Below are positions 22,980 through 55,914 of a DNA stretch of 64,000 nt, piece after piece. Below the pieces are notes generated by a model. The model worked only from the letters and a program-made list of their open reading frames with translations, was not told the DNA's origin and did no database searches. The DNA comes from Siniperca chuatsi. Lineage: Eukaryota; Chordata; Actinopteri; Centrarchiformes; Sinipercidae. The DNA lies in assembly GCF_020085105.1 (NCBI RefSeq), contig NC_058043.1, positions 12,533,167-12,597,166 of the forward strand. The letters are read 5' to 3'. How positions within the stretch are numbered: the first letter of the stretch is position 1; every line of letters starts with the position of its first letter. The translations under genes were made by a program, and so were the position numbers.

Positions 22980-25030
22980 TAGGGCTGTCACAATTATTCG
23001 CAATTAATTGAGCTAACCGCGATCATTTTGCATAATTGCTAGAATCATTTCCATTCTCGGTATAAAAACAGCAGGATTAAACTAACAGAAATGTTATATT
23101 TCCATCACTATTTCCACATCATTTTCCACTGTATGACGTTTGACTAGTGCTCTTTTAATGACGTCATCTGAGTGGAGAATTAGCGCCACCTACTGTTTAT
23201 CGCGAGGCGCTTAACTTATAATAATACTTAACTGTAATATTCAACTGCCGCATTTTGATGAGCATCTATTGACATTAACATCATGGATTTAGTTACAAAG
23301 CCAAACACCATAGCACCACTGTGGGCACATTTTGGATTTAAGCCAAATGAAAAAGCAGAGCGCAATAACTTGGAGGAGGCCATATGTCAGATTTGCAGCA
23401 AAAAGGTGGTGGTCAAAGGCACTAATACCACAATCTAAAAAGCCATCTATGGATCCACCACCCCACCCAATTCGTAGAATTTGGAAAGACAGCCAGGTGT
23501 ATGGAGGACCGGAACAGCCAAAATAATAAATAAATAAATAACACGATTAATAAATTACGAGGCCATTAAATGCACCAAAAATATTTAAATTAATTTATAA
23601 AATGTGACACAAATTGTTATTATTTTTTTTTACATTTGTATTAATTCCCCTATTTATTTATTTTCCCATTTAATTTTCCATTTAATTTCTTCATTAACTA
23701 ATTTATTCAGTCATTAATTTATTCATTTATTTTTAATCATTTATTTATTTATTTATTATGTATATTTTATATATTTATTTTTGTATGTGTTATTTTCCCT
23801 TTGCATTTTCCCCCCATTTATTTATTTCTGTCTTTTCTCTTTACACTTCTGTATGCATTTCTGCTTCATTTTGCACATGAGGGGGGCTGTGTGTCATGGG
23901 GTTAACTTTTCACCTATTGGTTTTTGAGTGTTTAGAAGATCGACTATACATGCCTTGCTGCCATAAGGGTGGCTTCTGCCCACTGAGGGACAGTCAGCTC
24001 ACAACTATAATACAGAGGATATTTACAGCTGGCTCCGACCAGGACTCTGATCTAGATCATATTTTATGGAGAAAAAATATTCTGGTTTTCCCTCGGATGT
24101 CCTCTGGCTGCTCTGCCTCAACTCTTATCCCCAGACCCCAAGGACACCACACTCACAGCAAACATCAAGAAAATAATGTGCTGTGGTCTTGATGAAAAGT
24201 ACAGCGCAACTCCACTTCAAAAGCTCCTGAGAAAGGCCACCCTCCTCGATCCAAGATATACTAGGGGCAGTAATGGGGATCCAGTGGTCGTGGATGATGC
24301 TAAGGACCAGCTTTTAAGGCAGATGACGGAGATGAAAGAGGAAGAAGGCAACAGTGACAGAGGTGGGGACTGTAACAGCAGAAGATGATGGACCTGCACC
24401 TCCTGCACCCAAGAAGAGGAGGCGGTGCGACCTGTTGCAGAACAGAAGAATCCAAATTGATACCCAGGCTGTGCCGAAAAGAGGGCTAATACTGAACTGA
24501 CACGGTACCTGCAGGAGGAGGCACAGGAATCCGCAGATGTGATGGCGTAAGAACCAAGCAAGGTTCCCTTTGATGGCCAAGTTAGCAAGAAAGTACATGT
24601 GCATTTGTGCAACAAGTACTGCCTCTGAGAGAAGCATGATTGGCTGTGGTTGTGGATGAGAAGGATATGGCCTGTTTTGGCCATAGTACATTTTGATTAT
24701 TGGTACCTGTCATTGTCAGTAATTTATTTGTATATTTCAGTAATAGGCTTTGTATATTTAAATGATTATTTATGCCATATCTGCCCTTTGCAATGTTTGT
24801 TTACAAAGCCTAAAAGGCAAACAGAAATTAAATGTTTATTTATGTGTTCCAATGTTCAAAGCCAATTAATGGCTTTTCTTCTTCATAAGGTGTACGTATT
24901 ATTAAACTATTATTAGGCTTATACTATAATAGTGGCATAAAATGAACGGAAAAAGACAATTAAACCTTAATCGCGATTATTTGTATGACAATTAATCATC
25001 AACTAAAATTTCATGATTGTGACAGCCCTA
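22980..25030 (+). mobile_element. Decayed 2.05-kb hAT transposon with BED-finger and transposase remnants
   Basis: Inverted termini TAGGGCTGTCACAAT (left) and ATTGTGACAGCCCTA (right) are exact reverse complements. The flanking 8-mers CCTGTAAT (22,972-22,979) and TCTGTAAT (25,031-25,038) differ at one base and fit the hAT 8-bp target duplication. Inside, an ATG at 23,283 opens a frame with the start of a BED-type zinc finger (LWAHFGF, then CQICSK followed by GTNTTI) before an in-frame stop. Further right, about 24,160-24,260 encodes a transposase piece with the ALLDPRY-like motif TLLDPRYTRG. AT-rich ATTT tracts (about 23,520-23,870) interrupt it. Frameshifts and stops make it non-functional as transposase. 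Confidence 0.88.
23283..24388 (+). pseudogene. Broken hAT (ZBED-like) transposase gene
   Basis: Two recognisable fragments of one former reading frame survive within the hAT element. The first, from ATG 23,283, encodes about 50 residues with the start of a BED finger (Cys-x2-Cys then GTNTT) and ends at a stop at the position where the histidine pair would follow. The second, around 24,173-24,388, resembles the hAT C-terminal half, including LLDPRY before an acidic stretch. The catalytic core between them is not recognisable. BED-finger hAT transposases bind element ends through the finger and dimerise through the C-terminal part; this copy could not do so. Confidence 0.7.
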
Positions 25031-35666: not shown

Positions 35667-38600
35667 TCAGATCTCCTGCAGCAGGTTGGCGGGGAAGAAG
35701 CCGAGCTTCCGTCCTGTACTGACCTTCAGGTAGGCGTTTACCTCCTCACCCTTCTTCACCACAATCTGAGGACACACACAACAAACACACTTCGACTGGG
35801 ACAAGTGTGTTTTTGTGTATGTGTTATATGATGGTTTAACAACAGCTACATTGAAGCGTGTCAAGTCAATGTTTTTGCTATAAAAACAGTTTGAGAAAAA
35901 GAGGGAACAGATTTTGGGTGTGCACAAAATCAGGATTTAGCACTTTAAAATTGTGGACCTGTCCCTGAACACTCTTTGTTAAGCCACTATGTGTAGAACT
36001 GGAAAATTTCCAACTTTGGCACCACGTGGCGGTAACATAATTAAGACACTGTAGCGGATAGCAATGCATGCTGCTGAATAGTTTTCACGTTTTCACAAGA
36101 GGAACAAGAATTTAAAGTTAGGGTTCAGGTTAATTTACAGCGAGGGTTAAATTTAAACAGCTGTGAGGTTTAACAACAAGGTTAGATGTTAGTGACTGTA
36201 AACCAGTGATACTGCAACATTTGTCTCTTTATGTCAACATGACGCATGCTTGTGTGTGTATTAGTGTGTATGTTTGTGTGTTGTAGTTGTGTCTATTCAT
36301 GTTTTTTATAGCTGTCATGTTAACACACATGATGACTGTATTTACATGAATAACTACACAGTGTTTAAGTTATTGAACTGGAAGGCACCTAGTGTATAGA
36401 ACTGCATAATTATTATGTTTGTTATTTTTGCCTTCCTCTTCTGGATCAGTGTTTAACAGTGTATTTGTGTGTGTGTGTGTTAACCTGGTCTTTCTTCAGA
36501 GTGATTTGGCCCATCTCTCTATTGCCAACAAAGGAGCGTGTCACCTTGTAGGCCGTCTCTCCTGCTCGAACTCGGATGATGTAGTTGGCTGGTATGAAGC
36601 CCGTTCTCTCTCTGATCTTCCCCTGGTGGAGCAAAAGCTTGAACAGTGAGTTGTTGCAGCCCCAGTTTCTAATGTGGATTTCTTAAACATGAACATATTG
36701 TCCGGTGTGGCTTTGAAACCTGAGTGACTGACCAAAATAGCTGGATGGATGATGAAGAGGAGACAGTACAGAACCACAGTTGACTTTAGCTAAAAGAATT
36801 TACTTGTTTAAGAACCACAATGTTTTTCTAGTTTGAAAATTGAAAGCATAGACCAATGACAGCACAGCAAGTGCAATCTCCATCCAATCAGGTGCGGGAA
36901 GGGTTTGTGTTATCTGAGAACTGCCAGTCATCTGTTGTATTGTACAGTGTACGTTAAATGATGTTCATTTAAAGAAAAAGCCCATTTACCCTAACCAGAC
37001 CACAATGAGGGAAATTAAATTGTGGGCTGGCGTTCAGAGGCTGCAAATGATTATTTTATGTTCTTGACCTGGAACGCAGATCTCCACTGTGAACTGGAAG
37101 CTCAACACTGAAGGACAGCTCTCTGACTGAAGCTGCAGTTTACATTTTTAAATGATTTGTCCTTTGATTGTCGATTGACTTAAATACATACTACATAAAT
37201 ATTCAACACAATGCTCTAAAGTAACCCACTTGGACGTTACAGGAGTTGGATCTTCCCTCCAGCACATGAATGCAGCATAATTGTTAAAAAAAACAAATAA
37301 ATAGATAATCAACTAATGGCAAAAATCCCAAACCTAGACTGTGATCTAAATCTACTTAATTGATCCTCAAGCCAACTGGATGTCTGTAGGAAAAATTTCA
37401 TAGCTTTTGGAGAGAAGATAGAATTGAAAACATCAAATTGATCGTCATCGCTGTGAGTAATATGAGAAAACAAATCTTGGACTCACCCTCCACCATTCCT
37501 CATTGGAGTCATCTATCACTGTGATGCGGTCACCAGCACTTGGGGACAGAGTATTTTAAGGGGAGATTTAAATATTAAATAATGACAAAAACAAGTATTT
37601 TTGGTGCGAGTGAGACAGTCAGGAATAAAGAGAGCACAAAAAACTGAAAGAGAGATTAGACAAGGAGAGGGGCTTACTGAACATCCAGATCATCTTTCTC
37701 TATGGCTTTGAAGCGGTACAGAGCCAGATAGTAGTGAGACTGACTGAACACGCCGATCTTCCCTGGCTGAAGCTTTTTACTCTGATAAACACAAACATTC
37801 AAAGCACACTGACTTAACATCACCAGTCATTAAGAAAGTATCATCATCATAGTTGGTACTTCACATTATTCAAAGTTGCCTTGTTTTCATTTTGTTTGTC
37901 ATTTTCATCGCTGTTACCACTACTGTCATTAATACTGTGAATATTATATTTTTCATTGACATCATCATTATCATCATCATCATCATCTCTGACCTTGTCA
38001 TCAGCAGGAGCCTTGTCACCTCTCTTTTCTCCTTCTGTGTTTGCTGGTACACAACACAAATAAAAATGAGACAAACAAAAAAAAAACAAAGAGAAAATGA
38101 TTCACCTTCACATATTGTATCTCCATTATTGGAAAGAATCTTTGAAAGTATTTCTGCTGCTGTGCACATCCAAAAAACTTCTACAGGTGCTGGATCAAAA
38201 AACATGCAAATTGGTGATGATGGATCTCAGGAAGGCAACATTTCGATCTAACAGGGATCTTCATCAACGAACATGGAGACAGAGAGAGCGAGATACAAGG
38301 AAGTTGACACATAACAAAGGTCCCTAGCTGGACTCGAACCTGGAACATGCAGTTAAACCACTTGTCAAACAGGATGCCCTATTATCATGTTTCTACCCTG
38401 TTCAGCACGCACTTACTTCCTTCACCTCCTTCATCCTCCTGTTTGGGCTGGGATTCATCATCCTCCATCATCATCATCATCTGAAAAATTTTGGATAAAC
38501 AGTAGAAATACATTTATATAGAACTAACTGTGACAGAATCAGATTAAAGAAACACAAAAATACATTTGAAGAAGACAAAAGAAAAAAAAAGGTTAGTAAA

Positions 38601-40562
38601 AACAATGTATTGTAACAGTAAATAAAGCAAACATTCAAAGTAACATCATTTAAAAAAGAAGATTCTACTAATCTACCTGATGAGCTAAAGTCTACAGAGA
38701 GCTGTATGTCATATGAAGTGTTTTTAGTGCATTCACACTCACATTCTTCTTGTCCTCTGACCCTTTTTTACGCTCCTTGTTGGCCATGATCACACCAATA
38801 CGCAGTGTCTCAAACACAGGGTCAGTGCGGTTCGACTGTGCTGTCAATCAAACGTCATCAGTCAATAAACAGAGAAAACATGAATGCATCTCTTATAAAG
38901 ATCTAACAATAGGTATTTAAATCTAATCAACTTTACTGTAACTACAGTGACGGACTCAAAAACAGGACTGATTAATGTTATTCCTACAAACTTGGATAGT
39001 TACATTTGATTTTATGAACCACTTTTTCTTAAGACTAAACAGCCAATCTTTTCATCTGCGATGGTATCTGGTGATAATTAATTAGATACCTGATCTATTA
39101 CTAATGAACTCTACTATAAAGTCTCTTTCAGTTTAGAGCTTTTGCACATACTGCATTTGACAAAGGAAACAAAAGCTGAGTTGAAGTGACAGAAGTGTTC
39201 AGACCAACATTTAAACAATTATACATTAAGCTGATAAAAATGAACTTCTCATCATGTTCACTGCTGATCTATGTATATGTAACATATATGCTTCTTTCAT
39301 GACAAGATTATAAACTGAAAGTCAACATCTGGCTGGGAAAGAATTGAAGCATATATACAAAAACGAACTGTCCAAGATTAAGACAATGAATGATTCATTT
39401 GGTTTTAAGGTAGAATTTCTCTTTATGTAGAAAAATGTACATAAGCTGGACTCACAAAAGGGCAGCAGCTGTGAGACTGTGGCATTCTGCTGACTGCTGT
39501 AGAGAGGAGAACTGTAGGCTCTTCTGAATCCTGGAGGCTAAAAGAGAGAGAGAGAGGAGCATGTACACTAAGTATCTGGAAATGAAAAATTCTCTGAAGT
39601 GCATTCTTTAATTAAAGCCAGTAGTAGTCTGCAACTTGAAGCTCACAATTTTGCCAAAACACCTCTGGAACTCGACGTAGGACTGACACTGGTGGTGGAT
39701 GCTGGTTTTGCAGTTCTTACATCGCAATGCAAACTTGTTGTTTACTGAAGAGAAAAACCAAAATAAAGCAAAATTACTAAACTCATTTTTAAAGATGCAC
39801 TGAAGTCCACTTATTTTGTCATGCAGATAAACAAAGAGACAAGATGGACGTACAAACTATCATGCGTGCACAGACATCACAAAACTTTGGTTTCTTGCAG
39901 TAGTGGTCTTTGAACTTGTGAGGTCTGTCGTTGACTTGTTTGACTGGTTCTGCAGGAGGTTGTTCCTCTTTCTCTTCTTCTTCCACCTCCTCATCATAGA
40001 TGAAATATACCTGGGGAATGGTGAGGAAGGGAGGTTCAAAATCACAACAGAGCAGAATAAAAATGGGTCATAAATGTACAATAATCAACTGCTGAAAGAC
40101 AAAATGCAAGAAGGAACTTAGGTTGGATGTGAGAGTAGAGAATGGCCAACAATGGTGTATATCATAAAGCCATTTGACCATTTTATCTGGCAGTATGTTT
40201 TCAATCAAGAACTGTCTAAACAAACTGAATAAATCCTCCGTTATTGATTCCAGGGGATTCAACTGAATCTTCTGTTTGCCTCTTTATTTAACCCAAACAG
40301 TCCCAGTATCCTGCACCACCCACAGCCTGACAGATTTATATGAGAATGTTTCTATTAATACTGAACCACCCTGCAGTCTGAGTCATATGGAGTCTCTCTG
40401 GTGTTCACACAAACTGTATCATATCAGCCACAGCCAGATCCATGAAAAATGGCATCGAACACGTCAAGACTACTGTTTGTCTTTTTTCATTTTTATTTTG
40501 CCAAAATTCATAAATTGAGTTTAGAAAGTAATTGTGCCTGTTAACTGGGAATTTTTCACTCA

Positions 40563-44428: not shown

Positions 44429-44517
<89 letters not shown>
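44429..44517. repeat. Long (TG)n microsatellite upstream of the repeat-protein gene
   Basis: About 44 uninterrupted TG units, the longest simple repeat in the window, ending roughly 190 bp before the putative start codon at 44,706. Alternating purine-pyrimidine tracts of this length can adopt Z-DNA; whether it affects the gene is unknown. Confidence 0.97.
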
Positions 44518-44705: not shown

Positions 44706-47700
44706 ATGCTTGATACAAAAACAGACATGAAGTCTCAACACAAAGAGGTATCTATTAGCAAACAAAATTAAGTAATGTACTAAAGTACTATTTTGAGAAA
44801 CTTGTACTTACCTCTAGTATTTTTCCAGGCTACTTTATATTTCTACTCCACTTTGACTACATTTCAGAGAGAAACTGTACTTTTTATTGCACTACATTCA
44901 TTTTACAGTTTTCTACAATTATTAGTTACTTTTCAGTTTAAGAGTTTACATACAAAACACATGACCAGTACATAAAATATGATTCATTGTTTTAGATAAA
45001 ACCACCCAACAGTATATGAAGCAGTTAAAATGAGCTCTACCTCAATCAATTACAACATTTAAATACAGATTACAATGTTAGTGCATCAGTAATAATGATC
45101 CTATAATATAATAACATAACACTGACAAGGGCCATTCTGTGACTAATAGTAGTTTTACTTTAAGTACATTTTGTTGCTAATACTTCTGTACTTTTACTTA
45201 AGTTCAATTTTGAATGGAGTTTAACTTAATTTTATAGTGTGGCATTGCTACTTTAACTTAAGTAAATAATCTAAGTACTCCTTCCACCACTGGAGTGTAT
45301 GAAAAAGTTTTACAACTGATTGTTTTGGATTAAGGGGCCTCAAAAAAGGGGACCAAAAGGAAAGGTTTGACACTGTGCAAGCAAGAGATGGGAGTTGTTG
45401 CACTGAATGGACTCTTCTTTAACAGTTTAAACAGGTTTTGCCACAAAATGCATGTCATGAATGCATGCAAAATAATTTATTTTCTTTAATCTACATCTTC
45501 CGGTCTTCATCAGTGAATGGAGATGGCTCAGTGTGGGACTTCAGTCACATGATAACAAGTGATAAAGAGTACACAATGTGTAATAAATAGACTTTACAGC
45601 AGTTTAGAGATAAATTGTTAAAAACACACAAAAGGGGCATATGCAGGAAAATCAGTTGGTAGGATTTGTGAGTGAAGCACAAGCCAGTTGGTGTTGACAG
45701 CTGTAGTGATTGAAACTGAAGTGTATCTGTTAAGCACAGATACAGACACAGATGACTGGAAAACCAATAGGGCTGAACTATCTGTTGCTTCTGCCTAAAA
45801 AGTAAAAAAAACAATATTCATGAAATATCATATCAATTGTGAAAAGTAATAGAAGAAAGAAATGAAGTGGAAAACAAAATAAGAAAGATAATGTTTTTTT
45901 ACATCTTGTGTAAGATTTTAGGTGTAGGAGATGGATGAACAGAAATTGATCTGAAAAAGTGATTCCAAACAACCAAATTAACAATTGTAAAGTTCTCCAG
46001 TCATTTATAGTCATCGTTATACAACGCTCCACAGGTGCTTGGTGGCAAGAGTAGTACTAGTAGTAGCTGAATCGTGACATTTTTTCACTGTATGTTTTTT
46101 TCCAACAGAAAGAAAATGTCAAAGAAAGCCCTCTGGATACAGATCAAATGGAGAATGAGATAGCCAGTATGGTCTCAGAGATACAGGATCGGGCAGCCAC
46201 GAATATTCATGAGCTCTTTGAGGCTATCTCCAGATGGGAGGCTGAAGATAAATCTTCAGCATCTTGTTGCACCCACCAAAAGGTGGAACGGCAGCTGAGT
46301 AGATTTTTTGGCCTTCGGCGAGTGTTTGCCGAGTATCGAGGAGAGACAGCAGGACCCTCAGGACAGGATGAACATCTTGAACCAGATGCTGCCTCAAAAC
46401 CATCTATCAGCAGCTCATCATCACCAGCAGAGCATCGCAAGGAGAAGTCTTCAGACATAGAGGCAGACTTATACACGGACTCAACCCCAGGAACTGTGTC
46501 AAATCAGAATGTCACATCAGAGGATGTCTTAAAGTTATTCATAGAAGACAACCTGGTCTCAGACATGGACGCAAAATCTAAAGAAATTAATCTGACAAAA
46601 CCAGGATCTCCTAGAGAGATGTCCTTCATGTCGTTATCGAAGCACCACTTCCAATCAAAACAAAAGAAAAGGGTCCAGCTGTCAACAGAACAAGAATTGG
46701 ATGAGGCTGGTGGGTCAGACCGCAGTGAAGCCGGCTCTCCCCCAGTGACGACATTTCTTAAAGATGCAAGGAAAGCGGAGCCAAGCCCTGTTCCTCTGGA
46801 ACTGGTGGATGTGGAGGATGAGGAAGTCACAGCAGAAGAGAAACCACCAAAACTCTCCACAAAACAATCCACCACCAGCTCATCACCACCAGCAGAGCAT
46901 CGCAAGGAGAGGTCTTCAGACACAGAGACAGACTTATACAGGGACTCAACCCCAGGAACTGTGTTAGATGAGAATGTCACATCAGAGGGTGTCATAAAGT
47001 TATTCATGGAGGACAACCAGGACACAGACATGGACGCAAAATCTAAAGAAATTAATTTGACAAAACCAGGATCTCCTAGAGAGATGTCCTTCACCAAGAT
47101 GGACCCACCTTCCAAGGAGGACGACAAAGATGTCTGCAAGACCTCTCTGGGTGATGAGGATGTCACAAGAGTAGAGTATGGCGAAGAGAGGTCTTCAGAC
47201 AAAATACCATCCACCACTAGTTCGGACACAGAGACAGACTTATACAGGGACTCAACCCCAGGAACTGTGGCAGATAAAAATGTCACACGAAAGAAAGCTG
47301 CAGCCAGAAATAGCACAATATATAAATCGATAAAGTCGTTATGGAAGCAGTGCTTTCAATCAAAACAAAAGAAAAGGGTCCAGCTGTCAACAGAACAAAA
47401 ATTGGAGGAGGCTGGCAGGTCAGACCGCAGTAAAGCCGGCTCTCCCCCAGTGACGACATTTCTTAAAGATGCAAGGAAAGTGGAGCCAAGCCCTGTTCCT
47501 ATGGAACTGCTGGGTGTGGAGGATGAGGACGTCACAGGAGAAGAGAAACCACCAAAACTCTCCTCAAAACAATCCACCACCAGCTCATCACCACCAGCAG
47601 AGCATCGCAAGGAGAAGTCTTCAGACACAGAGACAGACTTATACACGGACTCAACCCCAGGAACTGTGGCAGATAAGAATGTCACATCAGAGGGTGTCAT

Positions 47701-50700
47701 AAAGTTATTCATGGAGGACAACCTGGAAACAGACATGGATGCAAAATCTAAAGAAAGGAATGTGACAAAACAAGGATCTCCTAGAGAGATGTCCTTCACC
47801 AAGATGGACCCACCTTCCAAGGAGGACGACAAAGATGTCTGCGAGACCTCTCTGGGTGATGAGGATGTCACAAGAGTAGAGTATGGCGAAGAGAGGTCTT
47901 CAGACAAAATACCATCCACCACCAGTTCTGACACAGAGACATACTTATACAGGGACTCAACCCCAGGAACTGTGGCAGATAAAAATGTCACACGAAAGAA
48001 AGCTGCAGCCAGAAATAGCACAATATATAAATCGATAAAGTCGTTATGGAAGCAGTGCTTTCAATCAAAACAAAAGAAAAGGGTCCAGCTGTCAACAGAA
48101 CAAAAATTGGAGGAGGCTGGCGGGTCACACCGCAGTAAAGCCGGCTCTCCCCCAGTGACGACATTTCTTAAAGATGCAAGGAAAGTGGAGCCAAGCCCTG
48201 TTCCTATGGAACTGCTGGGTGTGGAGGATGAGGACGTCACAGGAGAAGAGAAACCACCAAAACCCTCCTCAAAACAATCCACCACCAGCTCATCACCACC
48301 AGCAGAGCATCGCAAGGAGAAGTCTTCAGACACAGAGACAGACTTATACACGGACTCAACCCCAGGAACTGTGGCAGATAAGAATGTCACATCAGAGGGT
48401 GTCATAAAGTTATTCATGGAGGACAACCTGGAAACAGACATGGATGCAAAATCTAAAGAAAGGAATGTGACAAAACAAGGATCTCCTAGAGAGATGTCCT
48501 TCACCAAGATGGACCCACCTTCCAAGGAGGACGACAAAGATGTTCTGAGACCTCTCTGGGTGATGAGGATGTCACAAGAGTAGAGTATGGCGAAGAGAGG
48601 TCTTCAGACAAAATACCATCCACCACCAGTTCTGACACAGAGACGTACTTATACAGGGACTCAACCCCAGGAACTGTGGCAGATAAAAATGTCACACGAA
48701 AGAAAGCTGCAGCCAGAAATAGCACAATATATAAATCGATAAAGTCGTTATGGAAGCAGTGCTTTCAATCAAAACAAAAGAAAAGGGTCCAGCTGTCAAC
48801 AGAACAAAAATTGGATGAGGCTGGCGGGTCAGACCACAGTGAAGCCGGCTCTCCCCCAGTGACGACATTTCTTAAAGATGCAAGGAAAGCGGAGCCAAGC
48901 CCTGTTCCTCTGGAACTGGCGGATTGGGAGGATGAGGACGTCACAGGAGAAGAGAAACCACCAAAACCCTCCTCAAAACAATCCACCACCAGCTCATCAC
49001 CACCAGCAGAGCATCGCAAGGAGAAGTCTTCAGACACAGAGACAGACTTATACACGGACTCAACCCCAGGAACTGTGGCAGATAAGAATGTCACATCAGA
49101 GGGTGTCATAAAGTTATTCATGGAGGACAACCAGGACACAGACATGGATGCAAAATCTAAAGAAATTAATTTGACAAAACCAGGATCTTCTAGAGAGATG
49201 TCCTTCAAGTTGTTATCGAAGCACCACTTCCAATCAAAACAAAAGAAAAGGGTCCAGCTGTCAACAGAACAAGAATTGGATGAGGCTGGTGGGTCAGACC
49301 ACAGTGAAGCTGGCTCTCCCCCAGTGAGGACATTTCTTAAAGATGCAAGGAAAGCGATGTCAAGCCCTGTTCCTCTGGAACTGGTGGATGTGGAGGATGA
49401 GGACGTCACAGCAGAAGAGAAACCACCAAAACAATCCACCACCAGCGCATCACCACCAGCAGAGCATCGCAAGGAGAGGTCTTCAGACACAGAGACAGAC
49501 TTATACAGGGACTCAACCCCAGGAAATGTGTCAGATAAGAATGTCACATCAGAGGGTGTCATAAAGTTATTCATGGAGGACAACCTGGACACAGACATGG
49601 ATGCAAAATCTAAAGAAAGGAATGTGACAAAACAAGGATCTCCTAGAGAGATGTCCTTCACCAAGATGGACCCACCTTCCAAGGAGGACGACAAAGATGT
49701 CTGCAAGACCTCTCTGGGTGATGAGGATGTCACAAGAGTAGAGTATAGCGAAGAGAGGTCTTCAGACAAAATACCATCCACCACTAGTTCGGACACAGAG
49801 ACGTACTTATACAGGGACTCAACCCCAGGAACTGTGGCAGATAAAAATGTCACACGAAAGAAAGCTGTAACCAGAAATAGCACAATATATAAATCGATGA
49901 AGTCGTTATGGAAGCAGTGCTTCCAATCAAAACAAAAGAAAAGGGTCCAGCTGTCAACAGAACAAGAATTGGATGAGGCTGGCAGGTCACACCGCAGTAA
50001 AGCCGGCTCTCCCCCAGTAACAACATTTCTTAAAGATGCAAGGAAAGTGGAGCCAAGCCCTGTTCCTATGGAACTGGTGGGTGTGGAGGATGAGGACGTC
50101 ACAGGAGAAGAGAAACCACCAAAACTCTCCTCAAAACAATCCACCACCAGCTCATCACCACCAGCAGAGCATCGCAAGGAGAGGTCTTCAGACACAGAGA
50201 CAGACTTATACAGGGACTCAACCCCAGGAACTGTGTCAGATAAGAATGTCACATCAGAGGGTGTCATAAAGTTATTCATGGAGGACAACCTGGTCACAGA
50301 CATGGACGCAAAATCTAAAGAAATTAATTTGACAAAACCAGGATCTCCTAGAGAGATGTCCTTCACCAAGATGGACCCACCTTCCAAGGAGGACGACAAA
50401 GATGTCTGCAAGACCTCTCTGGGTGATGAGGATGTCACAAGAGTAGAGTATGGCGAAGAGAGGTCTTCAGACAAAATACCATCCACCACTAGTTCGGACA
50501 CAGAGACAGACTTATACAGGGACTCAACCCCAGGAACTGTGGCAGATAAAAATGTCACACCAAAGACAGCTGCAACCAGAAATAGCACAATATATAAATC
50601 GATAAAGTCGTTATGGAGGCAGTGCTTTCAATCAAAACAAAAGAAAAGGGTCCAGCTGTCAACAGAACAAGAATTGGATGAGGCTGGCGGGTCAGACCGC

Positions 50701-52369
50701 AGTAAAGCCGGCTCTCCCCCAGTGACGACATTTCTTAAAGATGCAAGGAAAGTGGAGCCAAGCCCTGTTCCTCTGGAACTGGTGGGTGTAGAGGATGAGG
50801 AAGTCACAGCAGAAGAGAAACCACCAAAACTCTCCTCAAAACAATCCACCACCAGCACATCAGCATCAGCAGAGCATCGCAAGGAGAGGTCTTCAGACAC
50901 AGAGACGTACTTATACAGGGACTCAACCCCAGGAACTGTGGCAGATAAACATGTCACACCAAAGAAAGCTGCAACCAGAAATAGCATAATATATAAATCG
51001 ATAAAGTCGTTATGGAAGCAGTGCTTCCAATCAAAACAAAAGAAAAGGGTACAGCTGTCAACAGAACAAGAATTGGATGAAGCTGGTGGGTCAGACCACA
51101 GTGAAGCTGGCTCTCCCCCAGTGAGGACATTTCTTAAAGATGCAAGGAAAGCGGAGTCAAGCCCTGTTCCTCTGGAACTGGTGGATGTGGAGGATGAGGA
51201 CGTCACAGCAGAAGAGAAACCACCAAAACAATCCACCACCAGCGCATCACCACCAGCAGAGCATTACAAGGAGAGGTCTTCAGACACAGAGACAGACTTA
51301 TACAGGGACTCAACCTCTCTGGACTCAATCCCAGGAGCTTTAGGACAGGACAGACATTTTAAAGGTCTGAAAGAAACCTTCGACACCATAATAAATGGAT
51401 TCTTCAACAGTCTCAATGAAGAGTAGGTTATCTAATTTTGTCACAGAAACTCACTTGAATAATATTGTAACAATTGTTGTGTACATTTTTGTTGTGTTTT
51501 AACTTTGTTTCACTGTTTTTTTCTTTTTAAGGCAGCAGAGCGAAATAAGCAAAGGTGTTAAGAACATGGACGTGAAGTACAAGCTGACTGACATGGGTAT
51601 GGAGGTGATTAGGGTCGTCATAGACACGATCAATGACATCCTATCAAAAGAAACGAGAAAACCCACCTTTTCCCATGTATGTGGGATGGAGGCTGTTGGC
51701 CAGAAGTTGCCCTTAGAGCTTCTCAGGGAGAATTTTCATTTTGCTGAGGATAAAATCCAGCAGAGTTTGAAAGGCTCCTTTGGCGAGGCTTTGTGTGATG
51801 TGATTGGTTCAGACACATCTGTTAGCATAACACCCAAAATCACACAAGCCATTGTGAAATGGATCACAGATAATCTAAACTCTGCTCTGTCAGAGGCCAT
51901 ACAAGCCTTACTGGCTGGAGGATCCAATGTCCATGCTGCTTCCTGCTGCCAGTTCTCAAGTTGCAGAGCATGTAACGAGATGTTGGCAGGAGTTATTCAG
52001 GCAATGAAATCCCTCCTCACAGGTCCAGGTACTGCAAGGAAGAAGACAATTCAGACTGAAAGGACACAGAAACATTCCGATGGTGAGAGCAAAGATGACA
52101 GATTGGTCAACAATAAGAAGTCGCAGCGGTGGAGCATTGGCAAATGGTGGAAAAATAAAGTCCAGCCCGTTTCTGACAAAGAAATGGAGGAGGTTGTCAG
52201 GTTGTCAAAGTGTAAGAAGGAAGAGGACAAGAAGAAAGAGGACAAGAAGGCTTCAGCACATGATCTGGCTGTCAAGACCAAAAAGCCTTCTTTGTTGTTC
52301 TTCGGCCGTCTGAGCTGCTCTGGCCATGATGATGGTGAAGATCGAGTGACACCCTTCCACCCCACTTAA
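44706..52369 (+). CDS. Unrecognised large tandem-repeat protein gene
   Basis: I do not recognise this family. Proposed exons: 44706-44747 (ATG to donor GAG|GTATCT, phase 0, tentative), 46109-51422 (acceptor TTTTTTCCAACAG; donor AGA|GTAGGT) and 51532-52369 (acceptor TTTTTAAG; stop TAA). They join in frame to about 2,064 residues if one missing base near 48,543 is allowed for. The N-terminal about 90 residues are unique (helix-like ENEIASMVSEIQDRAATN, then CC). Eight copies of a charged Ser/Thr/Glu/Lys-rich module follow, with acidic SSDTETDLYRDSTPGTV, hydrophobic VIKLFMEDN and basic WKQCFQSKQKKRVQ segments. The last exon is unique and partly helical. No signal peptide or membrane segment is visible. 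A cytoplasmic or nuclear disordered scaffold with many phospho-sites is a guess. It lies opposite in strand to stac3 and r3hdm2. Confidence 0.7.
44748..46108 (+). other. First intron of the repeat-protein gene
   Basis: This is the putative intron between the short first exon and the giant exon. It contains the dispersed repeat at 44,765-45,292 and otherwise AT-rich sequence with no supported exon. If the first exon is wrong, part of this could be promoter. Confidence 0.4.
44765..45292. mobile_element. Copy of the CAGTGGTGGAAGAAGTA-family repeat
   Basis: It ends with AGTACTCCTTCCACCACTG, the classical terminus of this teleost element, and contains 'CTACTTTATATTTCTACTCC', 'CATTTCAGAGAG' and 'AATACTTCTGTACTTTTACT'. 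The left terminus is degenerate. It is the same family as 28,063-29,110 and better preserved. Confidence 0.7.
46671..51300 (+). repeat. 705-bp (235-codon) coding tandem repeat array
   Basis: The landmark GGGTCCAGCTGTCAACAGAA (one base changed in the last copy) starts at 46671, 47376, 48081, 48785, 49250, 49943, 50648 and 51047. Spacings are 705, 705, 704, 465, 693, 705 and 399 bp. Copies are close to identical at nucleotide level. All spacing differences are multiples of three except the 704. A nested shorter repeat, SSDTET(D/Y)LY(R/T)DSTPGTV, occurs twice per full unit and 13 times in total plus one degenerate copy. The 465-bp unit lacks the second half-module (TKMDPPSKEDDKDV to IKSLWKQC). 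The 693-bp unit lacks a four-residue LSSK stretch. Confidence 0.95.
48536..48560 (+). other. Single-base frameshift in the repeat-protein gene
   Basis: In other copies the codons read GAT GTC TGC (G/A)AG ACC. Here the segment is GATGTTCTGAGACC, one base shorter. The upstream frame then terminates at 48,583, while the downstream frame stays open for about 2.9 kb to 51,426. No slippery heptamer or stem typical of programmed frameshifting is evident. It is either a sequencing or assembly error or a very recent inactivating change. Confidence 0.9.
51532..52369 (+). CDS. Unique C-terminal exon of the repeat-protein gene
   Basis: The 279-codon last exon is joined in phase after a 109-bp intron (51,423-51,531); the other possible AG acceptors nearby lead to early stops. 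With the end of the giant exon (FKGLKETFDTIINGFFNSLN) it forms a probably helical region of about 150 residues. Two similar-looking helices (IRVVIDTINDILSKE and IVKWITDNLNSALSEA) suggest an internal duplication. A CCQFSSCRAC cysteine cluster follows, then a strongly basic stretch (WSIGKWWKNK), an EDKKKEDKK tract and an ending VTPFHPT. No known fold was recognised. This non-repetitive part is the best query for homology searches. Confidence 0.75.
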
Positions 52370-53280
52370 ACAACCTCAAACCCTACTCTATTCCCTCTCT
52401 CTATCATCTTACCTTCTTTCTACTCCCCTTTCCATCCTCTTTTGGGTTTTCTCCGGGTGCTCCGGTTTCTCCCACTGTAAAAACATAATTATCATTAATA
52501 AGCCTTAATTTAAAGATTGTGACACCCTTCCACCCCACTCTATTCTCTATTCCCTCTCTCTATCATCTTACCTTCTTTCTACTCCCCTTTCCATCCACTT
52601 TTGGGTTTTCTCCGGGTGCTCCGGTTTCTCCCACTGTAAAAACATAATTATCATTAATAATCCTTAATTTAAAGATTGTGACACCCTTCCACCCCACTCT
52701 ATTCTCTATTCCCTCTCTCTATCATCTTACCTTCTTTCTACTCCCCTTTCCATCCTCTTTTGGGTTTTCTCCGGGTGCTCCGGTTTCTCCCACTGTAAAA
52801 ACATAATTATCATTAATAATCCTTAATTTAAAGATTGTGACACCCTTCCACCCCACTCTATTCTCTCTCTCTATCATCTTACCTTCTTTCTACTCCCCTT
52901 TCCATCCTCTTTTGGGTTTTCTCCGGGTGCTCCGGTTTCTCCCACTGTAAAAACATAATTATCATTAATAATCCTTAATTTAAAGATTGTGACACCCTTC
53001 CACCCCACTCTATTCTCTATTCCCTCTCTCTATCATCTTACCTTCTTTCTACTCCCCTTTCCATCCTCTTTTGGGTTTTCTCCGGGTGCTCCGGTTTCTC
53101 CCACTGTAAAAACATAATTATCATTAATAATCCTTAAATTTAAAGATTGTGACACCCTTCCACCCCACTCTATTCTCTATTCCCTCTCTCTATCATCTTA
53201 CCTTCTTTCTACTCCCCTTTCCATCCTCTTTTGGGTTTTCTCCGGGTGCTCCGGTTTCTCCCACTGTAAAAACATAATTC
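52346..53280 (+). repeat. 159-bp minisatellite in the 3' UTR, six copies
   Basis: GTGACACCCTTCCACCCCAC recurs at 52346, 52519, 52678, 52837, 52989 and 53149, so units are 173, 159, 159, 152 and 160 bp plus a final copy of about 132 bp. The first unit starts inside the coding sequence and supplies its last seven codons and stop. Later units lack the 21-bp segment with the TAA. Each unit ends in GGGTGCTCCGGTTTCTCCCA and an AT-rich tail. Copies are nearly identical, indicating recent expansion. Confidence 0.97.
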
Positions 53281-53282
53281 TA

Positions 53283-53288
53283 AATAAA
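53283..53288 (+). terminator. Poly(A) signal of the repeat-protein gene
   Basis: A canonical AATAAA directly behind the minisatellite, followed by a T/G-rich stretch (TGATGTGCTGTTTCTGGTGG) suited to cleavage-factor binding. This implies a 3' UTR of about 0.93 kb that contains the whole array. Confidence 0.6.
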
Positions 53289-53350
53289 AATGTATGGTAA
53301 ATGATGTGCTGTTTCTGGTGGTATGTTGGAAAGAAGTGGAACATTACAAG

Positions 53351-53535
53351 GAGCGGCTGTGGCTTGGTGGTAGAGCGGGTCGTCCACCAATCGAAAGATC
53401 AGCGGTTCAATCCTGGCTTCCCCCAACCCACATGTTGATTGACCCACGTGTGTGATTGAGTTAGTTTCTTTGAACTGATGAACAGTGTGTGAATGTGATA
53501 TCTAGAAAGGTGCTATAGAAGTATAGTCCATTTAC
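53351..53535 (+). mobile_element. tRNA-derived SINE
   Basis: Polymerase III A box TGGCTTGGTGG (53,360-53,370) and B box GGTTCAATCC (53,404-53,413) have tRNA-like spacing. They are followed by a body ending in GGTGCTATAGAAGTATAGTC, the typical 3' end of a widespread teleost tRNA SINE (AAAGCGCTATATAAGTACAG consensus). It is a SINE, not a tRNA gene: the acceptor stem does not pair. Confidence 0.85.
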
Positions 53536-55914
53536 AAGGTTAGACAACCTAAAAATTACAATTTAACAGAACTGTATTTGTCTCAAGGACTGATATTAAA
53601 AAAGTAATGAATGAAATCACAATAATGGGAATTTGAACATATACATTTCCATGACAAAAAAAAAAGTCTGATTTAAAGCTACAGAAAAGTTATTTAAGGG
53701 ACTTGAGACTGTTTTCTCAACTGCTCTTTCCAAAATCAAGTCACAAACCTTAGCATACTGATCATTTAGTTATTCTTAGAGCCTTAAGATTTAAGTTTGT
53801 CCCGAGGGTGGCGCTAGAGAAAAGTTTCTTATCATTAAGAGTACTCCTCAACATTGTGGGACAGTTTAAAAAAAAAAAAAAAAAAAAAAGAAAAACATAA
53901 AAATTGATGCAGCAGAACCAGAGATGCCATCCTTTTTTTATTCCATGCATTCTTCTTCCTGGTCAAAACCTGGCGCATACATTACCCATAATGCAACTCA
54001 ACTTGACTCACTTGAGTGTACAGATTCAGGTGTTTTGCCAGTATTTGCTAATGTAGCCTGGAGTAGACCACCAGCTTCAAGTAGACAAGAGAAGCAAGCT
54101 AGAGAGATCATTTTCAAACTTGCAGTCTTCAGCTCCAAACGAGTTTCATCAGATTTCACGCTGCTCCCTGTAGAGCCACAAAAGGCTTTATACAATTTTT
54201 GGACATATGCAGTAGTAAGGATTCTTTATATGGGGAGCATGAATGTGAAAGTACAGCCAGGTGATGAGTTAAAGGAAAACCTGAATAAATGAGTGCAAAC
54301 AATGATTGCAGATGCTCCCTTACAGGTCACAGGGAGCAAAATTTTGTTGTGAAAAGTATGAAAATGTTGTGAATTATAGGCTATGGTCTTTGTCACCCAA
54401 TCTCAACCCAACTGAACACCTGCGAGATGGGATGGGCGATTTTGGACTGAAATTTCAGACAGCGTTCTCAACGATCATCATACCACCACCAAATGACGGA
54501 ATATATTTAGAAAGAATGGTGTTCATCCCTCTATTAAAAGTTAGAGACTTGAAGAACCTATGCCAATGATCGCTGAAGCTGTTGCGGCAAGTCTTGGCGG
54601 CCCAGCACCTTACCTTGCCATCTGCATATGTACATATGCTGTATACTATACAAACAAGGTGGATTATGGCTCTGTGTAGCTCATACTTTAGTCAGCTTCA
54701 GTAAAGTCAAACAATGAACCACATGACAGATGTTTTGATAGATTTTTCTCAACTTTTATATTTTTAAAAACAAACAAAAAATAACAGATTAAATAAAATT
54801 TACAGTAGACATATGCAATCATTGTGCACTTTAACTACTTCTTCTGATACGTTCTGCACAGCTGTCAACGAAAAACGCAAACACAATGGGGTGTCGGGTG
54901 AAGGGAGGGGGGGTGGAGAACTGTTGTGGGAGAGAGGAGAGGACTGAAGAAGTGAGGTAGAGGGCAGTAAGGAGGAAACAAATGTGGGGAAGAGTAGAGG
55001 GGGATGAAGAGGGAAGGAGTAAAGGATAAAGGAAGGCCTAAACTTTTTCACTCAGAGGAAAGAAAGAAAAATCACTGAATATATAGATTTCTTTTAATCC
55101 TTACATCACTTATATAAATATATTGAATCCCAAAAAACAAAAAAACTAAACAAAAAAATGTTTTGAGAAAAAAAAATAAAAACAGCGCAATACAGAAACC
55201 CACAACAGCAGTAAGGCAAACAGAAAGCGAGAGGAGAGAGCAGTGAGTGTGTACATGAGAGGGACAGAGGAGTACAAGAAGATCCGAGGCAGTATGAGAC
55301 ATGAAAAGAAAAGAGGGAGCAGCGGTGGGGGAAAGCTGAGAGAGTGCGCAACTGTGCGTATGAAAATTTATAAATATGTGAGATTAAGAGACGACTGGGT
55401 GACAGAGTTGAGGAAGGAGAGAAAGCAGAAAAGGGAGGAAAAAGAGGAAGGGTTGGAGAGCGGAGGGAGGAGGAAAAGGTGTGACTGAGGTCGACTGTCC
55501 AGTGTATTTTTTTATGTGCTACGTGACCCTGTTGCCTGCGTTTGTGTGTCTGTTTGTGTCTCCTGGTATGTGTGTGGCATTGCATGTGTTTTTGTATAAT
55601 GGCAGCACACATTCCACGGCAACAGTGAAACACATGCTCGCGTGTCTTGTGTGCTCTTCTGCTATATAAATACAAAACAAAAACAATGAATAAAAACAAA
55701 CAAAATCATATTTGCAACCAAACACCTGCCACCTCATGATTCACACCTTCTTCCCTTTTATACATTTGACACGTCATTTAATGTTTTTTGTTTTTAAATT
55801 GTACACTAAGAGCAGTCCCCCTCAGCCCTCCTTCCTTTTCCACCACTCCACCAAGAGTCTTTCTTTCTGTCTCTGACTTTCTTTCTTTTTCTTTCCTCCC
55901 CCTCTGTTTTCCTT
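53536..55914. other. Intergenic stretch between the repeat-protein gene and r3hdm2
   Basis: No gene seen. A poly(A) run lies at about 53,867-53,890 and a common repeat motif (GGTGGCGCTAGAG) at 53,806-53,820. A Tc1 transposase remnant is at 54,393-54,630. The right part (about 55,070-55,914) should be r3hdm2 3' UTR on the minus strand, with an ATTAAA signal variant near 55,094-55,100. The purine-rich 55,200-55,490 yields open frames without family resemblance. Confidence 0.5.
54393..54630 (+). pseudogene. 3' remnant of a Tc1/mariner transposase gene
   Basis: It encodes SPNLNPTEHLRDGMGDF, the degenerate form of the Tc1 SPDLNPIEHLWDEL signature that carries the catalytic glutamate of the DDE triad. 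A little further on, after a stop, comes a region matching the family C-terminus (IEAV-type, then GGPAPY-like nucleotides 'GGCGGCCCAGCACCTTACC'). The 5' part of the transposase is absent. It is probably the same family as the element at 43,131-43,684. Confidence 0.7.

Follow-up and report, generated by a model that had tools for sequence, protein, structure and literature searches.

Gene Structure and Conserved Ends

The 64,000-bp stretch of Siniperca chuatsi DNA analyzed here (the window; RefSeq assembly GCF_020085105.1, contig NC_058043.1, positions 12,533,167 to 12,597,166) contains a three-exon protein-coding gene on the plus strand, with coding sequence distributed across window positions 44706-52369, as judged from our reading of the sequence and from its relatives. 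The gene places a large tandem-repeat array between conserved N- and C-terminal regions, and it is well supported, as is the fish family to which it belongs. A preliminary description of the locus had proposed an undescribed tandem-repeat gene with unique ends and with splice sites of good quality around a 5.3-kb exon that joins a last exon in frame. The unique ends are present in the gene and have matches in relatives, and the join of exons 2 and 3 is in frame, in phase 2, and is backed by relatives and by two paralogues with an intron of equal position and phase. All four splice borders were found (44747/gtatct, acag/46109, 51422/gtaggt, and taag/51532), although by our reading the gtatct donor of intron 1 is weak at +5/+6. 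The 5.3-kb exon did not hold as a single frame, since the open reading frame (ORF) that begins at 46067 stops at 48583 and its continuation, 48490-51426, lies in a different frame.

Openness alone says little about whether an array is coding, since copying a module with a multiple-of-three length leaves the frame open, and the case for the gene therefore rests on its conserved ends. The exon 1 peptide, MKSQHKE, joined to KENVKESPLDTDQMENE / KENVKESPLD, resembles by eye the start of relatives (MSQHRKNKDVKQSPLDPDMENEA / MSQHRKNKDVKQSPLD), exon 1 itself being outside the alignment. A search with the N-terminal part and the last exon, as the preliminary description had suggested, returned relatives, the N- and C-terminal composites matching them in protein searches at E values down to 2.2e-52 and 1.2e-63. 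Exon 3 is 43% identical to one of these (P0001) and 36-59% identical to six, and the N- and C-terminal parts taken together are 44-60% identical to five. The exon 2/3 join is spanned by sequence in five aligned relatives and, by eye, in P0011 and P0014. Another relative, P0002, ends where exon 2 of the window gene ends (SLTEE vs. SLNEE), which fits an ORF that runs into the intron.

Relatives in Other Fish

Fourteen protein identifiers were found, four of which are isoforms of one pikeperch gene, leaving 11 distinct proteins. Nine are from named species: Sander lucioperca, Perca flavescens, Etheostoma cragini, Thunnus albacares, Thunnus thynnus, Scomber scombrus, Cottoperca gobio, Chaenocephalus aceratus, and Dissostichus eleginoides. 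The three lineages that were looked up (Thunnus albacares, Sander, and Cottoperca) all belong to Percomorphaceae. Absence of the family outside percomorph fish is not shown by these searches, because they rest on shared 5-residue words; the third scored the 7999 candidates sharing most words.

The N-terminal region occurs in 10 of the 11 distinct relatives and the C-terminal domain in seven. Three features of the family were found in the window gene, namely an N-terminal region ending in RFFGLRRVFAE or similar, a C-terminal domain with CCxFSSCRxCxEML that is continuous over the exon 2/3 join, and a repeat unit made of a basic aromatic helix followed by an acidic PLELVDV motif. By eye, a Cys-rich end beside basic residues (CCRLSCCCRC, CCCCMCCCCC) occurs in five of the seven relatives that reach the C-terminus; the window protein has a single Cys in its tail, compared with two to nine in P0001, P0008, P0009, P0010, P0011, and P0014.

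The window gene was compared with uncharacterized proteins of Sander lucioperca (LOC116051614), Perca flavescens (LOC114554581), Etheostoma cragini (LOC117940004), Thunnus albacares (LOC122986698), and Scomber scombrus (LOC121904915), and with misnamed proteins of Thunnus thynnus ("serine-rich adhesin for platelets-like") and Cottoperca gobio ("mucin-6-like"). All share the N-terminal region and the repeated unit with its basic helix and PLELVDV-type motif, and all except the Cottoperca model share the C-terminal domain and the sequence over the exon 2/3 join. They differ from the window protein in the content and number of their arrays, in which the 235-codon higher-order module was not seen by eye, and most of their tails are richer in Cys. 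In the pikeperch gene (LOC116051614; P0005-P0008), comparison of isoforms X2, X3, and X4 with X1 shows internal gaps of 114, 169, and 214 residues in the repeat region, all in frame, and splicing or the choice of gene model may thus vary the number of units.

The database names of P0004 (a mycothiol-pathway cysteine ligase), P0009 (the adhesin), and P0013 (the mucin) look like misannotations due to repetitive sequence. The gene remains undescribed in the searchable literature, where identifiers of six relatives returned no paper containing any of them and a search naming both flanking genes returned unrelated papers only, none on this gene by title. In the databases, however, its relatives are already entered under LOC numbers, uncharacterized or misnamed. 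These anonymous entries, including those of three species misleadingly called adhesin, mucin, and cysteine ligase, now become a defined family with a common gene structure.

Paralogues with Unrelated Arrays

Searching the S. chuatsi genome (719 Mb in 65 contigs) with the exon 3 protein revealed two paralogues, on contigs C5 (37% identity, E 1.1e-36) and C13 (35%, E 1.9e-34); the other four matches all had E values of 1.96 or more. The N-terminal region found itself and, beyond that, only one match at E 1.6. Intron 2 has the same position and phase in all three genes, with lengths of 105 bp in C5 and 103 bp in C13, compared with 109 bp in the window gene; its donor reads AGAGTAGGTTATC in C2 and C5 and AGAGTAAGTTATC in C13. 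Both paralogues also share the C-terminal domain, an exon 3 stretch that resembles the repeat unit (QWKRCFSGWWRRK and LELVDYLEDEDE on C5), and, by eye, a similar N-terminus. The C5 gene adjoins htr1a (E 1.3e-197 to the solved receptor). In its exon 2, open for 660 residues, the place of the 705-bp array is taken by a 27-bp repeat (VKTLQSTEP type; 43.7 copies). The C13 gene (exons 2 and 3 at C13:16271580-16273987) has 5.6 repeat copies, two frame breaks in exon 2, and an open exon 3. Pieces shared by the C13 and C5 loci over ~5-7 kb at 81-90% identity have the appearance of a segmental duplication that took place recently. In a tree of ten C-terminal domains, rooted for drawing only, C5 and C13 split off with support of 100/100, and the window gene grouped with Percidae at 86/89, below the 95/80 mark of the tool. 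What stands out is that one exon holds unrelated arrays in sister genes of a single genome, 705 bp in the window and 27 bp on C5.

The Repeat Array and Its Reading Frame

The preliminary description had counted eight near-identical 235-codon modules. The count stands for a core, FQSKQKKRVQLSTEQ, that is repeated eight times; the module length applies to three of the seven spacings, which are 705, 705, 704, 465, 693, 705, and 399 bp. Apart from the frame break described below, all differences in module length are multiples of three. The array DNA (46000-47000) matches this locus only in the S. chuatsi genome.

Across the family, an older unit of ~85-95 residues was seen, and the 235-codon module is a higher-order repeat built locally from it. 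Searching with a profile seeded by the window units found the older unit in all ten proteins searched, the window protein included. Six relatives also carry a divergent copy in their C-terminal tails, as does window exon 3 (score 24.4). The unit consensus runs from a basic aromatic helix (KIYKKMKSAWKSCFRSKPKKKVQ) through an acidic S/P stretch to SVPLELVDVEDKDVTPEE. The P of PLEL never varied among the 34 most complete of the 63 aligned units, in which K, F, S, and VDV.D.D came next in conservation (the first column of the alignment rests on very few units and was ignored). Identity averaged 86% between window units and 23-43% between these and the units of other proteins; the 235-codon module has thus recently spread and been homogenized.

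Basic amphipathic helices numbered eight in the window protein, compared with a mean of 1.9 (maximum 5) in shuffled sequences, and 10 of the 11 proteins examined had more of them than any of their shuffled versions. These counts used 30 shuffles per protein, thresholds of our own, a hydrophobicity scale, and a D formula.

The frame change in exon 2 coincides with a net loss of one base in the third module relative to its neighbors. As assembled, the product would comprise 838 residues (by arithmetic from the coordinates) and would lack the C-terminal domain, and the single uninterrupted reading frame expected of a family member is broken in the window gene. The module with the break is 98-99% alike in protein to its neighbor. 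Assembly errors are expected in near-identical modules, and the loss either is such an error within the repeats or is real and truncates the protein. We left the break unrepaired and, where both frames of exon 2 were analyzed together, placed X or G letters at it.

If the break is real, the gene could be decaying in S. chuatsi, with selection on the array lost and long open stretches persisting only because a multiple-of-three module stays open on copying. The one-base loss in the third module, a ratio of nonsynonymous to synonymous differences (pN/pS) of 1.42 among array copies, the two frame breaks in C13 exon 2, and a Cys-rich end reduced to one Cys, with an extra tail encoded by the 3′ array, are all consistent with decay. 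We nevertheless consider it unlikely, if far from negligible, given that the remaining differences in module length (240, 12, and 306 bp, from the spacings) are multiples of three, that the frames of exon 3 and of the N-terminal region run without interruption and both parts retain the identities to relatives given above, and that the break sits where assembly errors are expected.

Predicted Structure and Domain Searches

AlphaFold2 modeling of a tuna relative (P0011) predicted helices at residues 18-62 and 68-97, coil at 98-558, helices at 560-770, and more helices in the tail. Over residues 561-770, ten-residue blocks had predicted local distance difference test (pLDDT) scores of 54-82, except for 35-47 over 631-670 and 40 over 731-740. 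The predicted form of the protein is a helical N-terminal region, a long unstructured region, a helical C-terminal domain, and a basic tail. The disordered middle anticipated by the preliminary description agrees with the coil predicted in the tuna protein and with the richness of the window array in S/T/P and charged residues; the multivalent scaffold that it also suggested is an interpretation taken up below.

As the preliminary description had noted, the protein has no recognized domain. Pfam scans of three window pieces and of the 13 rows of an alignment (A3; 11 relatives and two window pieces) yielded no credible one. A match of Gly_radical to the second half of exon 2 (E 1.1e-5; 26.4 bits, above the cut-off of 22.2) and matches of Collectrin (3.7e-15), CAP_N-CM, SCP2_2, SOAR, ScpA_C, and DALR_2 in single members were discounted because they fell on repeated stretches or differed from member to member. 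No match to PDB was found by sequence profile, a fold search with the predicted model gave no significant match to a solved fold, and Rfam gave none over the window. A candidate AKAP-type RII-binding helix within the N-terminal helix was not kept; by eye, its spacing fits the notothenioid forms and the window form is one residue short.

Proposed Role and Alternatives

From the excess of basic amphipathic helices and the predicted form, we infer a cytoplasmic multivalent scaffold that docks on membrane through its repeated helices, a tentative proposal to which we give somewhat less than an even chance. The helix of each unit (IYKSIKSLWKQCFQSKQKK here) would dock on acidic membrane, the S/P-rich acidic stretch after it, with the short motif PLELVDVxDxDV, would recruit partners, and the end domains would assemble chains. 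The Cys-rich end beside basic residues suggests lipid attachment, and the window tail retains one such Cys. Unit number would set valency and could change fast by tandem duplication and homogenization. Basic membrane scaffolds of MARCKS type likewise combine an unfolded chain with a segment that is both basic and aromatic and, possibly, with a lipid anchor; they differ in that the segment is repeated in the window protein, and no family of MARCKS type appeared in the Pfam scans.

Several results weigh against this proposal. The P0011 model has a mean pLDDT of only 44.3 and a predicted template modeling (pTM) score of 0.36, and the AlphaFold2 model of exon 3 alone, at 41.9, was too poor for a fold search. 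With one frame break here and two in C13 exon 2, two of the three genomic copies are not open as assembled. The pN/pS of 1.42, taken over 97 codons, and the numbers of variable sites at the three codon positions (15, 12, and 10) give no signal of purifying selection since the copies arose. Between C5 and C13, the exon 3 ratio of nonsynonymous to synonymous rates (dN/dS) is 0.66 (dN 0.063, dS 0.095), with 469 of 500 bootstraps under 1; this counts in favor of constraint, but weakly, and the C-terminal domain alone gives 0.62 (below 1 in 424 of 500). P0013 shows no helix excess (one helix; shuffle maximum two), and two of the eight window copies carry SLSKHH or LLSKHH where the helix is expected. 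A Cys-rich end is also not a strict family feature, as P0012 lacks one and P0014 has only two Cys. Finally, the basic amphipathic helices also fit calmodulin binding.

Calmodulin binding is the nearest rival to membrane docking. Under it the helix of the unit would bind calmodulin rather than membrane and the protein would be a calmodulin-loading array. The motif type, IYKKIKSAWKSCFRxK, with hydrophobic residues at about every three to four positions and a net charge mostly of +5 to +9, would suit such binding, whereas the Cys-rich basic end in most relatives that reach the C-terminus points to membrane, and on balance we judge a calmodulin array improbable. We think it less probable still that the LVDVEDED element is a SUMO-interacting (or clathrin-box) motif and the array a multi-SUMO or clathrin scaffold. 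The window protein does contain seven strict matches to the SUMO-type pattern, the one motif counted, compared with a shuffle mean of 0.20 (maximum 2), yet one motif copied along with its module would yield this excess without selection on it. With isoforms taken separately, a strict match is present, singly, in three of 14 relatives and absent from 11, for which reason the motif was rejected as a family trait and our case does not rest on it. A retroelement or a processed copy of a known gene, which the preliminary description had named as an alternative, can be dismissed with near certainty, as no support for either was found, introns are kept here and in the paralogues, array DNA is not dispersed in the genome, exon 3 matches only two other places below E 1.9, and viral contigs yielded 91 pattern matches but no relative among the encoded proteins.

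Besides the 705-bp and 27-bp arrays of the sister genes, the family exon appears by eye to hold other repeats in Cottoperca and mackerel. It is conceivable, though we would not expect it, that tandem arrays have originated in this exon again and again, each flanked by the conserved helical ends and built on a basic helix that binds membrane or calmodulin, with array length serving to tune the valency of a membrane scaffold and selection on it being lineage-specific or antagonistic. Involucrin and other lineage-specific proteins with internal repeats have a comparable layout, with conserved ends round fast-changing repeats in one large exon; the likeness is of layout alone, no sequence relation is claimed, and the fish gene is not known to have an epidermal role. 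The interest of the locus lies in this exon and the unrelated arrays it holds across sister genes rather than in a single odd repeat. Because these arrays sit in the same exon within one genome, the family offers a clear view of how tandem repeats in coding sequence originate, become homogenized, and gain use, and it is also suited to asking whether unit number tunes binding strength.

Feature Coordinates, Transcript End, and Neighboring Genes

Table 1. Coordinates of features of the gene (window positions) and of its paralogues (contig positions).
Feature	Position	Strand	Remarks
Exon 1	44706-44747	+	Codes MLDTKTDMKSQHKE; second ATG at 44727, a possible start
Intron 1	44748-46108	+	gtatct ... 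acag, from sequence
Exon 2	46109-51422	+	N-terminal helical region and repeat array; two frames, not one
N-terminal conserved region	46109-46432	+	EIASMVSEIQDRAATNIHELFEAISRWEAED...THQKVERQLSRFFGLRRVFAEY; counterpart predicted helical in tuna relative
Eight core copies	46652-51314	+	Anchors 46652, 47357, 48062, 48766, 49231, 49924, 50629, 51028
Net one-base loss	48540-48553	+	Third module, relative to neighboring modules; frame then stops at 48581-48583
Intron 2	51423-51531	+	109 bp, phase 2; position common to C5 and C13 paralogues
Exon 3	51532-52369	+	Helical C-terminal domain to ~52022, divergent repeat unit QRWSIGKWWKNKVQPVSDKEMEEVVRLS, tail, stop
3′ tandem array	52346-53280	+	~159-bp unit; GTGACACCCTTCCACCCCACT copies at 52346 (inside coding end), 52519, 52678, 52837, 52989, 53149
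AATAAA	53283-53288	+	Sole one within 52370-54000
Paralogue matched stretches	C5:22843634-22844359; C13:16272773-16273510		Exon 3 protein search

The ~159-bp array begins within the last coding bases, and array copies therefore supply the C-terminal VTPFHPT of the protein as well as the 3′ untranslated part. The AATAAA reported downstream of the stop was recovered at 53283. On the minus strand, the neighboring gene is STAC3, as previously proposed, with 36449-36682 matching the solved STAC3 SH3 domain (E 1.6e-18) and 39822-40067 the C1 domain (E 4.6e-15). The gene on the other flank is putatively R3HDM2. A perfect TG run of 44.5 copies occupies window positions 44429-44517, ending 188 bp 5′ of the first ATG. 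Short ORFs at 24056-24385 and 54306-54566 recall fragments of hAT and Tc1/mariner transposases, with no Pfam match at 0.01. Lastly, a tRNA-like stretch at 53340-53400 (tggcttggtggtagagcgg...aatcgaaagatc) recalls a candidate head of a short interspersed nuclear element.

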